DNA of 48,545 bases from a virus. The DNA lies in the IMG/VR virus record IMGVR_UViG_3300045970_000517, positions 1 to 48,545 of that record, one strand, 5' to 3'. The translations under genes were made by a program, and so were the position numbers. Below the pieces are notes generated by a model, which saw only the letters and a program-made list of their open reading frames with translations, searched no databases and was not told where the DNA came from. Shown here piece by piece: positions 25,320 to 42,267 of the stretch (its first letter is position 1; each line of letters begins with the position of its first letter).

Positions 25320-25405
25320 TGGTGCGCCGGGCGGGACTCGAACCCGCAACCTCGTAAAAGGGACGGTTTTTAAGACCGTTGTGTAAACCATTCCACCACC
25401 AGCGC
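25320..25405 (-). tRNA. tRNA-Leu (anticodon UAA)
   Basis: 86 bases including encoded CCA. Acceptor GCGCTGG/CCGGCGC (one G-U), D-loop with GG, anticodon stem ACGGT/ACCGT with loop CTTAAAA (anticodon TAA), a type II variable region of 15 bases, T-arm GCGGG-TTCGAGT-CCCGC, A73. It reads UUA codons, frequent in this AT-leaning genome. Co-transcribed with the gene at 25413-25748. Confidence 0.95.
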
Positions 25406-26615: not shown

Positions 26616-27179
26616 TTACAACAAAACAAGCGATTTGTCAACTATCTTTTCCGTTGGCTTGTAGAACTTGTGATTGTCTATTACTGCAACCATTTTGTAT
26701 TGCTTCGACCATTTCGGATATCTATACCCCTTCGACTTCATTACTTTATCCGCAAGATAAAAGGTTGAGCCATTTGTCGGATCGGGCACCATTCTATGTG
26801 CTACCTGGTGTGCAACCTTCATTGCCATTTCCCATCCTTGCTTATCAATATCATTCTTTTGTTTTGGTATTAAATGCAAACTTGTGGCGATACTTCGCAG
26901 CGTAGGGTTATTGTTGAACACACTGTATTGATAGGGCTGCAAAACCACCTGGCATAGCGTCTTTTTGACAGCGCGGTTCACAGATGTGAAAGCAACAGCC
27001 ACCTGCCCGAGCATCGACTCGCCACGGGCTTCACCGTAGATCATTACCGCAAGGCACTTTATCTGCTTCATATCTACCTTAACGATAGGTTTTGGTGCAG
27101 TAGGTTTTAAGCACATGGCTTTCTGCCCTATGTCTACAGCGGTAGGTACCAATGCTAAGAGGATTAATAGTTGCTTCAT
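26616..27179 (-). CDS. SleB/CwlJ-type cell wall hydrolase, probable endolysin
   Basis: 187 residues. An N-terminal signal-like stretch (MKQLLILLALVPTAVDIG) is followed from residue 40 by the Hydrolase_2 pattern: LAVMIYGEARGESMLGQVAV with the catalytic Glu, FTSVNRAVKKTLCQVVLQPY then QYSVF, later PTNGSTFYLADKV, KW and a final AVIDNHKFYK. The family cuts the glycan strand of peptidoglycan. The signal suggests export by the host Sec pathway rather than a holin alone. It has its own promoter at 27187-27215. Confidence 0.88.
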   Translation of the reverse strand: MKQLLILLALVPTAVDIGQKAMCLKPTAPKPIVKVDMKQIKCLAVMIYGEARGESMLGQVAVAFTSVNRAVKKTLCQVVLQPYQYSVFNNNPTLRSIATSLHLIPKQKNDIDKQGWEMAMKVAHQVAHRMVPDPTNGSTFYLADKVMKSKGYRYPKWSKQYKMVAVIDNHKFYKPTEKIVDKSLVLL

Positions 27180-27398: not shown

Positions 27399-27680
27399 TG
27401 GTGGGTCAGGTGGGAGTCTAACCCACGATCAACGGTTTCCGGTTTGTGTGACTTTAGCCACTCCCTGGACTATGCCTTCACCATATCTTGCGACTTAGGT
27501 GGGTGCCGTCTAGTCTCTACACGTTCAAAGATATTTCTATCTAAGCTTCGCTCGATATTGCCTTATGCATTTCTGCACTTAGGTTTCGTCGAATTTGACA
27601 CCATTCACTCGGTAGATTTCTCTATCCGGTGCACTCTTCCTGAATGAGACCGCTGCTTTAGGACACTAAGCTACTGACCC
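27399..27680 (-). tRNA. tRNA (anticodon CAU; Ile2 or Met) with group I intron
   Basis: Exons 27680-27644 and 27438-27399 join to a 77-base tRNA: acceptor GGGTCAG/CTGACCC with A73 and encoded CCA, D-arm GCTT/AAGC, anticodon stem GCGGT/ACCGT with loop CTCATAA, T-stem GTGGG/CCCAC. The intron sits just after the anticodon, as in the Azoarcus tRNA-Ile(CAU). The D-loop (AGTGTCCTA) lacks GG and the T-loop (TTAGACT) lacks C56, an unusual elbow. Whether it reads AUA (lysidine) or AUG cannot be told. Confidence 0.92.
27439..27643 (-). ncRNA. Group I self-splicing intron (IC3, Azoarcus-like)
   Basis: 205 bases, the same length as the Azoarcus tRNA-Ile intron. Minus-strand matches to its core: ATGGTGTCAAATTCGACGAA then ACCTAAG (P3/P4), GTGTAGAGACTAGACGGCAC then CCACCTAAG (P7, P3, P8), ATGGTGAAGGCATAGTCCAG (P8, P7) and GGAGTGGCTAAAGTCACACA (P9), ending in G. 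The 5' exon ends CAT and GTG 9 bases in can form P1. Variable P2, P5 and P6 loops differ from Azoarcus and remain paired. No endonuclease frame inside. Confidence 0.95.
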
Positions 27681-28144: not shown

Positions 28145-28219
28145 TGGTCCGGCGTAAGGGAATCGAACCCCTATAATGACTTTAGAAGAATCATGTCCTA
28201 TCCGTTGAACGAACGCCAG
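28145..28219 (-). tRNA. tRNA-Arg (anticodon UCU)
   Basis: 75 bases with encoded CCA. Acceptor CTGGCGT/ACGCCGG (one G-U), D-arm GTTC-AACGGATA-GGAC, anticodon stem TGATT/AGTCA with loop CTTCTAA (anticodon TCT), T-arm AGGGG-TTCGATT-CCCTT, A73. It reads AGA, a codon rare in many proteobacteria and favoured by AT-rich phages. It lies 4 bases after a 34-residue CDS in the same operon. Confidence 0.95.
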
Positions 28220-34771: not shown

Positions 34772-35365
34772 TTATACAGGATGGTCGCCGCCGGCGTGTC
34801 GTGTAACTTTAATCAAATGCTCTGGCCAATCCACGTAGTATTTCCATTCTTCATCTCTAATATGCAGCGGCAAAGTTTTACGCTTTGCAAGAATTTCATA
34901 GTATGTAGGCTTGACGGGCTTCTTCTTAGGAACAATCCTATGATCATCACCCTTTTCACTATTGCATGCCTTACAAGAAGTGCATACGTTAACCCATGTA
35001 GTCTTACCACCGTGTGAGCGGGGAACCACATGGTCGAGTGTTAGATCCATCACACTGGTTGCCTTACCGTGCCTATCTTTACACCTACCCGTTATTTGCA
35101 GCTGGCAGGTAAAATCATCACGCAAATACACATTGGCTCTGCTGTATTTCAATGTCTTAGCCCATTTAACTTGTTCAGTCATGATAATGATAGAAGGGAC
35201 AGGCATATCCAAATATTGGGATCTGACAGTCCAATCGTCATAGGACTTCAGAATCTTTACCTTATCGGTAAAAACTAATCTCATAGCGACTTGCCAATCA
35301 ACCGTTGATAGCGGTATCATGGATAGTGGCATAGCGTTAGCATTGAGTAGAAGTGTATCAGACAT
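34772..35365 (-). CDS. HNH endonuclease, LNANxxPL type
   Basis: 197 residues. The start LLNANAMPLSMIPLSTVDWQ...MRLVFTDKVKILKSYD and VPSIIIMTEQVKWAK form the N-terminal domain of a widespread HNH family; the core follows: RANVYLRDDFTCQLQITGRC, MDLTLDHVVPRSHGGKTTWV, NVCTSCKACNSEKGDD. Such proteins are common in phages and bacteria and may act in DNA packaging, defence or homing. Its promoter is at 35389-35417. Confidence 0.9.
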   Translation of the reverse strand: MSDTLLLNANAMPLSMIPLSTVDWQVAMRLVFTDKVKILKSYDDWTVRSQYLDMPVPSIIIMTEQVKWAKTLKYSRANVYLRDDFTCQLQITGRCKDRHGKATSVMDLTLDHVVPRSHGGKTTWVNVCTSCKACNSEKGDDHRIVPKKKPVKPTYYEILAKRKTLPLHIRDEEWKYYVDWPEHLIKVTRHAGGDHPV

Positions 35366-35721: not shown

Positions 35722-36915
35722 CTATTTCTTTTTAGGCGAGTGGTCGTCCGGTACATAGTGCGCTGTCATTCCAAACGGCGCAATGATTCTTTGTCCTGGA
35801 TCACCGTGTATGAGGAATAATGTGTCGACATAATCCGGATCACCCCAACTACCACACGGATAGCCGTCGGTCATCATAATGAATCGCTCGGGCACAATAC
35901 CCTTTTCCTTCATAAATGTCCAGTTGCAAGGAAACTCTGTGCCACCTCCGCCCTTGATATCATATTTGTCAATGTCGTCGAGTGTATCTGGAGTAAACTG
36001 TTGATAGTTATAAACCTTTGTATCAAATGTCCAAACGTCAAGCTCAAAGTCCATAAACTGTTGCATAATACCTTTTGTTTCAGACAACAAGTCACGCAAC
36101 ATTTCATTACTCATTGAGCCAGATGCGTCAATCGCAACCGCTGCCTTAACTTTAAAGTCGTTTTTCGTTGCAGGCAAATATATACCACTTGCTTGCATTT
36201 TACGTGAGCAGCGATCCCAGGTAAAGTCCGACTTCACCATAGATTGCAGTTTCATATTTAATATTTCCCGCCAGTTCATTTGTGGCTCAACCATGTCTTT
36301 CAACAGACGCTTAACACCTGCAGGAGTATTGCCACCTGTCTTGGATGCTTGCATAACAGCATTGCGAATTTCGTCAGATAAGATTCTACGATCTTCTTCT
36401 GACATTGGCTCGCCTTTGCCGTCGCCCGGTTCCATATGCACGTCGAACTCTGGCCAGTTACCACCCGGTTCCTTAAGGAGTAGTTCATATACTTCTTCAG
36501 TGAACATTCCTTTGTATTTTTTATCAAAACATGCTTGCACACCAGATGTTTTCGGATTAGGCAACTTGCCTACGTTGTGTTCATCCAACTCTCCGTTAAT
36601 AACAAAGTCTGCCGCAGCATTCCACATCTTCGGAAGTCTGCTACCGCGCCTATCCATGTGATCATAAACACAGTGTTCTACTTCGTGTGCGACAAGAAAA
36701 ATGCATTCTTGCTTGTCAAGTTTGCTAATGAAGCGTCGGTTGTAGTAGAAATAACGTCCGTCTGTGCCAGCAGTCTTGCACCACGGCTCGTCGGTAGCAT
36801 CACGCAGGGTTAGTCGAGTGGCAAGTGTGCCCCAAAAAGGTTGTTGGAGAAGTAGTGAAATCCGTGCGCGTATTAGTTGTTCTAATACTGCTTCGTTGCT
36901 TGAGTCTGCCGCCAT
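35722..36915 (-). CDS. DUF2201-type putative metallopeptidase with VWA-like domain
   Basis: 397 residues. Residues about 75-95 have FLVAHEVEHCVYDHMDRRGS, an HExxH-type zinc motif, followed by MWNAAADFVINGEL. The C-terminal domain begins KAAVAIDASGSMSNEMLRDL, a DxSGS metal-dependent adhesion motif, and has MMTDGYPCG later; this is the von Willebrand A-like half. The family is normally encoded beside a MoxR-type AAA ATPase; that partner is at 42394 here, 5.5 kb away with the tail fibre between. Probably a chaperone-like or assembly module. Confidence 0.88.
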   Translation of the reverse strand: MAADSSNEAVLEQLIRARISLLLQQPFWGTLATRLTLRDATDEPWCKTAGTDGRYFYYNRRFISKLDKQECIFLVAHEVEHCVYDHMDRRGSRLPKMWNAAADFVINGELDEHNVGKLPNPKTSGVQACFDKKYKGMFTEEVYELLLKEPGGNWPEFDVHMEPGDGKGEPMSEEDRRILSDEIRNAVMQASKTGGNTPAGVKRLLKDMVEPQMNWREILNMKLQSMVKSDFTWDRCSRKMQASGIYLPATKNDFKVKAAVAIDASGSMSNEMLRDLLSETKGIMQQFMDFELDVWTFDTKVYNYQQFTPDTLDDIDKYDIKGGGGTEFPCNWTFMKEKGIVPERFIMMTDGYPCGSWGDPDYVDTLFLIHGDPGQRIIAPFGMTAHYVPDDHSPKKK

Positions 36916-41163: not shown

Positions 41164-42267
41164 TTAAATAGTTGGAAAAGAAATCAGTTCTTTATATTCG
41201 TTTGATTTTTGGTAAATCATAAAATTGAAATTATATCCTGCCAGTAAGGTATATTTCTGTTTTGCTAAATTAGTGTGTAACCACGAAACACGACTCGAAT
41301 ATGTATATAAACTTTTAACTTCAATTATTAAATTATTTTTTGGTATATAGATATCGGGAAAGTAATAATGATTTTTTTCATCTAATCCTACATATTTTAT
41401 TCTCGGTATATACAAATTATTAGTTATGATATCATCCTCGTCGTATGTCTTAAGTAGTTCGGTTAATGCCCAGGGTTCATACCCCTGCACCATATCTACG
41501 CGGCCCGACGGAAATATAAATTCCTTCATCATATAGCCCGACCGCATCTTCTTCTGGTGCACTACTACATTCTGTGATGCATTCTCCACGCCAAACCGGT
41601 CGATCATTGTGTCGACTCTCTTTTGTTTTACCTCAACATTTGAAGATGGATTTTCGCAGCCATATCTCTCTATGTTTGTTATTTTTGCTTTACCTAACCT
41701 TTCTTTAGAATTTTCTGTATTCTTACAAGATACAGATGCTGCAACAGACAGAATTTTTAGTTGATGATCTACACCATATTTTTCCATAAAAGCTATTTTC
41801 TTTGTTTCTTTTACAGACTGCAACGAGTTAGTGCTTTCAACACCATATCTCTCAAGATTATTTTCTTTGGTTTTTCTTGTTCTGGTCACTGATGTGGCTG
41901 TTGTTGTTATTCGTAGGCGTTCTCGTATTTCATCATTTTTAGATGCATTATCTACACCGAATTTTTCAATGTTGGTTGCTCTGCGTTTTGCCAATATAGC
42001 ATCCATATCTTTATTAGCATATGTATTTTCATATTTAATGCCAGAGCCAATTTTCTTACATTCGGCTGAACAATATATTTTATATACGCCATATTTATTT
42101 TTAGGTGGTGTATTATTGCATGTAGGATTGCCGCATGATACACCTTTCATCCGAGGGTTACACTCATTTGAGCAATATGTTTTGTATAGGCCGAATTTAT
42201 CCTTTTCGGCCATATTATTGCATAATATATTCTTACATTTATGATTTTTAAAAATTCTAGTTTTCAT
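41164..42267 (-). CDS. PD-(D/E)XK endonuclease with zinc fingers and xERYGVEN repeats
   Basis: 367 residues. Two N-terminal zinc knuckles (CKNILCNNMAEKDKFGLYKT then YCSNEC; CGNPTCN...YCSAEC). The middle has at least five copies of a repeat N-[IN]-[EL]-[KR]-[FY]-G-[VC]-[DE]-[NS], as in NLERYGVESTNS and NIERYGCENPSS, which probably bind DNA. The C-terminus has the nuclease core FPDIYIPKNNLIIEVKSLYT (D...E-x-K). This design is typical of phage-borne homing or group I-intron-associated nucleases. It lies beside the tail fibre gene, a usual target for such elements. Confidence 0.82.
   Translation of the reverse strand: MKTRIFKNHKCKNILCNNMAEKDKFGLYKTYCSNECNPRMKGVSCGNPTCNNTPPKNKYGVYKIYCSAECKKIGSGIKYENTYANKDMDAILAKRRATNIEKFGVDNASKNDEIRERLRITTTATSVTRTRKTKENNLERYGVESTNSLQSVKETKKIAFMEKYGVDHQLKILSVAASVSCKNTENSKERLGKAKITNIERYGCENPSSNVEVKQKRVDTMIDRFGVENASQNVVVHQKKMRSGYMMKEFIFPSGRVDMVQGYEPWALTELLKTYDEDDIITNNLYIPRIKYVGLDEKNHYYFPDIYIPKNNLIIEVKSLYTYSSRVSWLHTNLAKQKYTLLAGYNFNFMIYQKSNEYKELISFPTI

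Follow-up and report, generated by a model that had tools for sequence, protein, structure and literature searches.

The anticodon loop of a tRNA(CAU) gene in a jumbo-type phage is very probably interrupted by an autocatalytic group I intron of the IC3 type, one that appears to have been inserted alone into a tRNA gene already present in the phage lineage. The window, i.e. the whole stretch of DNA analysed, is a linear IMG/VR record of 48,545 bases. Run on the window with default settings and no intron option, ARAGORN returned only tRNA-Leu(UAA) and tRNA-Arg(UCU) and missed the split tRNA(CAU). When introns were allowed, ARAGORN reported a 282-nt gene encoding a 77-nt tRNA with a 205-nt intron, at exactly the span (27399-27680) noted in a preliminary description of this DNA. 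That description had also given the intron length, placed the intron after CAU and predicted the size of the mature tRNA, all of which proved correct; the gene lies on the minus strand. The tRNA genes, exons and synteny marker of this region are as follows.

27399-27680, minus strand: intron-bearing tRNA(CAU) gene with encoded CCA and a 77-nt mature tRNA (ARAGORN with introns; intronless orthologue L057:7626-7702)
27644-27680, minus strand: 5' exon, 37 nt, with the anticodon CAU (27644-27646) at its end (sequence; the 31 nt before the splice site equal L057)
27439-27643, minus strand: group I intron, 205 nt, Azoarcus/IC3 type, with the terminal omega-G at 27439 (Rfam, covariation, tree)
27399-27438, minus strand: 3' exon, 40 nt, AAACCGTTG...CCA (sequence; the first 30 nt equal L057)
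25320-25405, minus strand: tRNA-Leu(UAA) (tRNA scan, Rfam)
28145-28219, minus strand: tRNA-Arg(UCU) (tRNA scan, Rfam)
26616-27179, minus strand: endolysin-like gene, also adjacent to the tRNA of L056 and L057, which served as synteny marker

ARAGORN set the intron boundary 2 nt early and thereby labelled the tRNA as Pro(CGG), which we rejected as an artefact of the slid boundary. The junctions read ...GGTCTCAT / TCAGG...AAACCGG / AAACCGT... (the upstream side is also written GCGGTCTCAT), with a U before the intron and a G as the last intron base, as is the rule for group I introns, and the spliced anticodon loop is CUCAUAA. Both splice sites could be fixed to the nucleotide because the intronless orthologue L057 shows the empty version of the site. 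The intact core described below and these empty-site exons suggest that the precursor would splice itself to the 77-nt tRNA. The preliminary description had proposed an Rfam scan for the intron and a phylogeny against bacterial tRNA introns; in the former, Intron_gpI (RF00028) matched 27446-27656 on the minus strand with 50.4 bits (E 5.6e-10), barely above the gathering threshold of 50 bits, and the fold was not rejected. The intron (27439-27643) contains no homing endonuclease gene. Three HNH or homing-endonuclease-like genes are found on the minus strand 7 to 15 kb from the tRNA (34772-35365, 35722-36915 and 41164-42267); these could serve in trans, and nothing links them to the tRNA site.

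The elements of the intron were assigned as follows.

27632-27646, minus strand: P1, exon CAU plus intron UC against GA plus the guide GUG, with U.G at the 5' splice site (sequence; CAU and GUG are invariant in 22 sequences)
27606-27631, minus strand: P2 with a GAAA tetraloop, L2 (compensatory changes inside the GUGCACC subgroup)
27597-27602, minus strand: P3 5' strand, partner 27502-27506 (structure scored over the alignment)
27589-27592, minus strand: P4 5' strand, partner 27552-27555; A-U in the window, G-C in the other 21 (alignment)
27561-27583, minus strand: P5 hairpin with CCUAAG / UAAGG, not the CCUAAG / UAUGG receptor (alignment)
27521-27551, minus strand: P6 and P6a; the closing pair changes jointly from C-G to G-C in 4 of 22, including the window (alignment)
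27511-27515, minus strand: P7 5' strand, guanosine-binding helix, partner 27468-27472 (invariant in 22 sequences)
27479-27501, minus strand: P8, with the CCUAAG / UAUGG receptor for L2 intact (alignment)
27448-27461, minus strand: P9, five pairs, three covarying; loop UAAA, cf. GNAA in the 21 relatives (alignment)

This fold was scored over an alignment of 22 introns at one site, made up of the window, 5 other phage copies and 16 bacterial copies. Paired cells amounted to 91.1%, compared to 82.0% in shuffles and 27-40% in slid versions. The scored structure was modelled on the Azoarcus intron and took the window as its template, an origin that gives it an advantage over slid versions in percentage paired. 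A total of 24 of 55 pairs had changed on both sides (12.8 in shuffles), and the covariation score was 0.270 relative to 0.105 in shuffles. Overall, the fold exceeds chance. Most of the covariation fell in P2, P5, P6, P6a and P9, whereas P7, the conserved part of P8 and the pairs of P1 were invariant and by themselves uninformative on covariation. The core P3-P8 with P4-P6 and the conserved guanosine site in P7, which together define a group I intron, were all present. That a phage tRNA(CAU) holds a group I intron of Azoarcus type, as put forward in the preliminary description, was thus supported by Rfam, by covariation and by the tree discussed below, in which the window intron shares one clade with other CAU introns. 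The same description held that the peripheral helices had drifted, and this was correct insofar as P2, P5 and P6 differ and L9 departs from its 21 relatives; however, P2, P5 and P6 covary.

The L9-P5 contact is peripheral and is dispensable for defining the Azoarcus-type (IC3) family. In the Azoarcus intron there are two tetraloop contacts, in which the loops of P2 and P9 meet receptors in P8 and P5 (PMC2813881). Motifs for the L2-P8 contact (a GAAA loop and a CCUAAG/UAUGG receptor) are present in the window intron, in which this contact would be expected to form. L9 is UAAA rather than a GNRA loop and the P5 receptor reads UAAGG; because both deviate, one of the two tetraloop contacts, L9-P5, is probably weakened. 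P1 can be extended to CAUUC/GAGUG, and the UU through which bacterial guides could pair with AA of the 3' exon (P10) is missing from the window guide. These features (the UAAA loop, the altered P5 receptor and the absent P10 pairing), as well as odd D- and T-loops in the tRNA and an Rfam score at threshold, would also suit a decayed, splicing-defective insertion in a tRNA pseudogene. We consider this very improbable, since the window pairs assigned to P3, P4, P6, P7, P8 and P9 are standard throughout, two of these helices carry compensatory states (A-U for G-C in P4 and G-C for C-G in P6), a whole tRNA class shares the unusual D- and T-loops, which co-vary within it, and the acceptor stem has been kept by compensatory change.

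Related contigs L056 and L057 were reached via the endolysin gene adjoining the tRNA. The gene order tRNA-Arg, tRNA(CAU), endolysin, tRNA-Leu is common to the window, L056 and L057, and the tRNA(CAU) of both relatives is intronless. Compared to the spliced window tRNA, that of L057, which scores 63.8 bits as a tRNA, was identical over the 31 nt that precede and the 30 nt that follow the junction. The acceptor stems, GGGUCAG/CUGACCC in the window and AGGCUGG/CCGGCCU in L057, have diverged yet are paired in both, which shows the tRNA to be under selection. In L056 (7618-7701), a 7-nt tandem duplication (ACCGTTG) directly follows the anticodon loop, perhaps reflecting a broken copy or an assembly slip.

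A search with the D-arm AGCTTAGTGTCCTAAAGCA, which sits in the 5' exon and is therefore blind to the presence of an intron, returned 20 viral contigs including L056 and L057; all carried tRNA(CAU) genes (~11 distinct tRNAs) and all of these were intronless. The window exons were identical to members of this class at 62-70 of 77 positions, the best match (70/77) being with intronless phage tRNAs. Identity to the sampled intron-bearing tRNAs, whether bacterial or phage, was 50-55 of 77 (50-52 of 77-79 for the bacterial ones), and exon differences from bacterial intron-bearing tRNAs came as close to the junction as 6 nt on its 5' side and 3 nt on its 3' side. Because the exons match the intronless phage class and not the sampled intron-bearing tRNAs, the intron and the exons have different histories.

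The preliminary description had suggested capture of an intron-bearing tRNA from a bacterial host. That a complete intron-bearing tRNA gene was taken from a betaproteobacterial host would account for the clustering of the window intron with introns of bacterial tRNA(CAU) genes, but is extremely improbable and at odds with the exons, which place the gene in a phage tRNA class that is intronless in all its other known members. The exon differences close to the junction and the synteny with L056 and L057 also argue against it, as does a search of the betaproteobacterial class, in which the D-arm was absent from all 369 genomes even when 1 mismatch was allowed. Alternatively, the intron might be ancestral in the phage tRNA class and have been lost from the other members, and related introns do occur in other phage tRNA(CAU) genes (L007-L010, L036, L037, L042, L046). 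We regard this as highly doubtful, given that all 20 D-arm contigs are intronless, that the two other phage tRNAs with a CAU intron that were compared (L036, L042) are of a different class at 50-55 identical positions of 77, and that loss would have to recur, precise each time. Gain by an existing phage tRNA, rather than capture with a host tRNA, is most likely because the exons are of the phage class and all 20 D-arm contigs are intronless, and it is favoured over loss because one event would be needed instead of many precise ones.

The tRNA class of the window and L101-L120 lacks G18-G19 and C56 and has the D-loop AGU-GU-CCU and the T-loop UUA(G/A)A. Under a putative assignment of positions, a U19-A56 pair would replace the tertiary pair G19-C56 in these phage tRNAs. 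Among the distinct tRNAs at all fetched loci, 110 have C56 together with the D-loop GG, and 16 of 16 without C56 also lack GG; all 16 are on viral contigs, and 5 of them combine G-A in the D-loop with U56. The interpretation of the odd loops as marks of a decayed tRNA was dropped, as they co-vary across the class.

A pattern derived from the window intron core retrieved 20 loci in bacterial genomes, of which 16, nearly all from Betaproteobacteria, were used as tRNA(CAU) introns. Within the Polynucleobacter family, 62 of the 398 genomes matched the window intron at the DNA level, many of these matches being partial, short or weak, and identity to betaproteobacterial relatives reached 86% over the longer part of the intron. 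This identity, to relatives other than Azoarcus itself, is the measured part of the claim that length and core are the same as in Azoarcus. In the phylogeny, CAU introns of bacteria and phages formed one clade in two trees (support 95/99 and 98/99). The window intron fell in a Polynucleobacter-type group (97/99) with the P1-P2 columns included, and beside L021, another betaproteobacterial intron, with these columns left out (95/89). Clade membership thus appears firm, and the proposed link to Betaproteobacteria stands for the intron, but the exact donor shifts between trees; Polynucleobacter introns are not put forward as the donor, as that placement depends on the P1-P2 columns. Polynucleobacter MWH-HuK1 (L145-L148) has four tRNA(CAU) genes, each with a related intron, and the P2 types of these introns differ.

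Phage copies lay at several places in the CAU clade, interleaved with bacterial ones, and the label changed several times in all bootstraps. Such a pattern would be expected if phages were the source of the CAU introns of Betaproteobacteria, a proposal about the direction of transfer that was also raised in the preliminary description and is compatible with gain by a phage tRNA but that we consider unlikely: AU tests rejected neither a single phage clade (p 0.08) nor a single bacterial clade (p 0.06), and the pattern through which the tree was sampled came from the window's own core.

We propose that the intron was gained alone, recently enough that near relatives remain empty, from a pool of CAU introns common to Betaproteobacteria and other phages. 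The intron may have entered precisely between tRNA positions 36 and 37 through reverse splicing into the anticodon loop, or through endonuclease-driven homing or recombination with the copy of another phage as source. Before splicing, P1 would form between the guide GUG and the anticodon CAU, with U.G at the splice site, and a guanosine held by P7 would attack after U36, in the first of the two transesterifications with external guanosine expected from the family. The freed U36 would then attack behind the terminal intron G, joining CUCAU to AA and giving back an ordinary anticodon loop, and lysidine modification by the host would most likely yield a tRNA-Ile2 for AUA codons. More tentatively, we consider it possible, if rather doubtful, that small group I introns free of reading frames are carried by phages and spread alone, entering the tRNA genes of phages and bacteria by reverse splicing at the 3-bp CAU target; if true, phages would be a main vehicle for the spread of tRNA introns in bacteria, with the anticodon loop as the common landing site.

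The three window tRNAs would read AUA (or AUG), UUA and AGA. Across 17 window ORFs, 39% of the Ile codons are AUA, and tRNA-Ile2 is favoured over tRNA-Met because AUA is this frequent. The tRNA(CAU) has a G1-C72 pair in addition to its CAU anticodon, and the TilS identity positions are mixed (U4, C5). The mature tRNA is probably tRNA-Ile2 reading AUA, with elongator tRNA-Met as the alternative. The window itself is probably a fragment of a jumbo phage, because relatives of its ATPase sit on very large contigs or in jumbo phages: the gene shares 81-87% identity with genes on contigs as large as 369 kb and 73% with genes on two further sizes of contig, 363 and 385 kb, and among cultured phages the best matches come from Pseudomonas jumbo phages of the PA5oct kind (54.6%). 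When cultured phages were searched by Megablast with 24 kb of the window, there was no match.

Further group I introns in tRNA genes were found on about 19 IMG/VR contigs and in the following five GenBank phage records.

Atu_ph07 (Agrobacterium phage): tRNA-Leu with a group I intron
Gordonia phage Daredevil (cultured; L098:780-1091): tRNA-Lys(UUU) with a 238-nt group I intron
Microcoleus phage My-WqHQDG: tRNA-Arg with a group I intron
Huge phage LR756501: tRNA-Leu with a group I intron
Huge phage LR756511 (L004:868-1654): tRNA-Leu with a 700-nt intron that holds an HNH-like reading frame, potentially a mobile phage tRNA intron

In the 385-kb relative (L058:14376-14672), a group I intron of 208 nt splits a tRNA-Leu(UAA), and the separate tRNA(CAU) is intronless. 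On a related contig of 59,658 bases (L095:1480-1790), a tRNA-Leu holds a group I intron scoring 54 bits at a different site, apparently before the anticodon loop (near 31/32) and lacking the U at the apparent 5' boundary. ARAGORN labelled the tRNAs of L042 and L046 as Gln(UUG), which we corrected to CAU by the same reasoning on slid boundaries. Several contigs are taken as phage on the basis of IMG/VR; among those tested, L036 has a terminase match, and no PHROG match was obtained for four proteins from L042 and L046. ARAGORN found no tRNA at the matches in phages AD45, VEN and pYD6-A, which were not considered further.

It was reported in 2014 by Hausner and colleagues that phage group I introns to date were all in protein-coding genes, despite the many tRNA genes of phages (PMC3984707). 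The later open-licence literature yielded only one doubtful phage tRNA intron, a region of 2.5 kb within a putative tRNA-Stop and, according to its own authors, a possible artefact (PMC5746245); subscription journals may hold earlier reports. The word 'intron' was absent from the available text of the papers on Atu_ph07 and the huge phages. The view in the preliminary description that group I introns are rare in phage tRNA genes therefore agrees with the literature, but with about 24 further cases found here they are less rare than assumed. Standard annotation hides such genes, in that without an intron option the tRNA is missed, and the split tRNAs of Daredevil and Atu_ph07 are unannotated in their records. 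The intron is of a known kind in a phage tRNA setting that has barely been noticed in the literature searched. As a single orthologous phage tRNA is seen here both occupied and empty, and its boundaries are exact, the passage of a model ribozyme between bacteria and phages can be tested directly.

Among the closest known systems is the Azoarcus pre-tRNA-Ile(CAU) intron, which is 205 nt long, follows CAU and uses the guide GUG. It agrees with the window intron in core, position and length, and differs in having L9 GAAA rather than UAAA and in lying on a chromosome rather than in a phage genome, while the P5 receptor UAAGG, the P1 extension CAUUC/GAGUG and the phage-class exons set the window apart. 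Introns from bacteria such as Polynucleobacter, Pseudoduganella, Uliginosibacterium and Propionivibrio share the window's site and clade and are about 200-255 nt long, but their tRNA(CAU) genes, sometimes in several copies per genome, have exons with a normal G18-G19 / C56 elbow. The phage tRNA(CAU) introns of L036/L037, L042/L046, L007/L009/L010 and L008 also have the window's insertion site and clade (that of L042 with the same GAGUG guide), whereas their host tRNAs have ordinary D- and T-loops unlike those of the window class. Phage tRNA-Leu(UAA) introns (Atu_ph07, LR756501, L058) are likewise small group I introns in the anticodon loop, but are inserted after the first U of UAA and form a separate branch of the tree (95/99).
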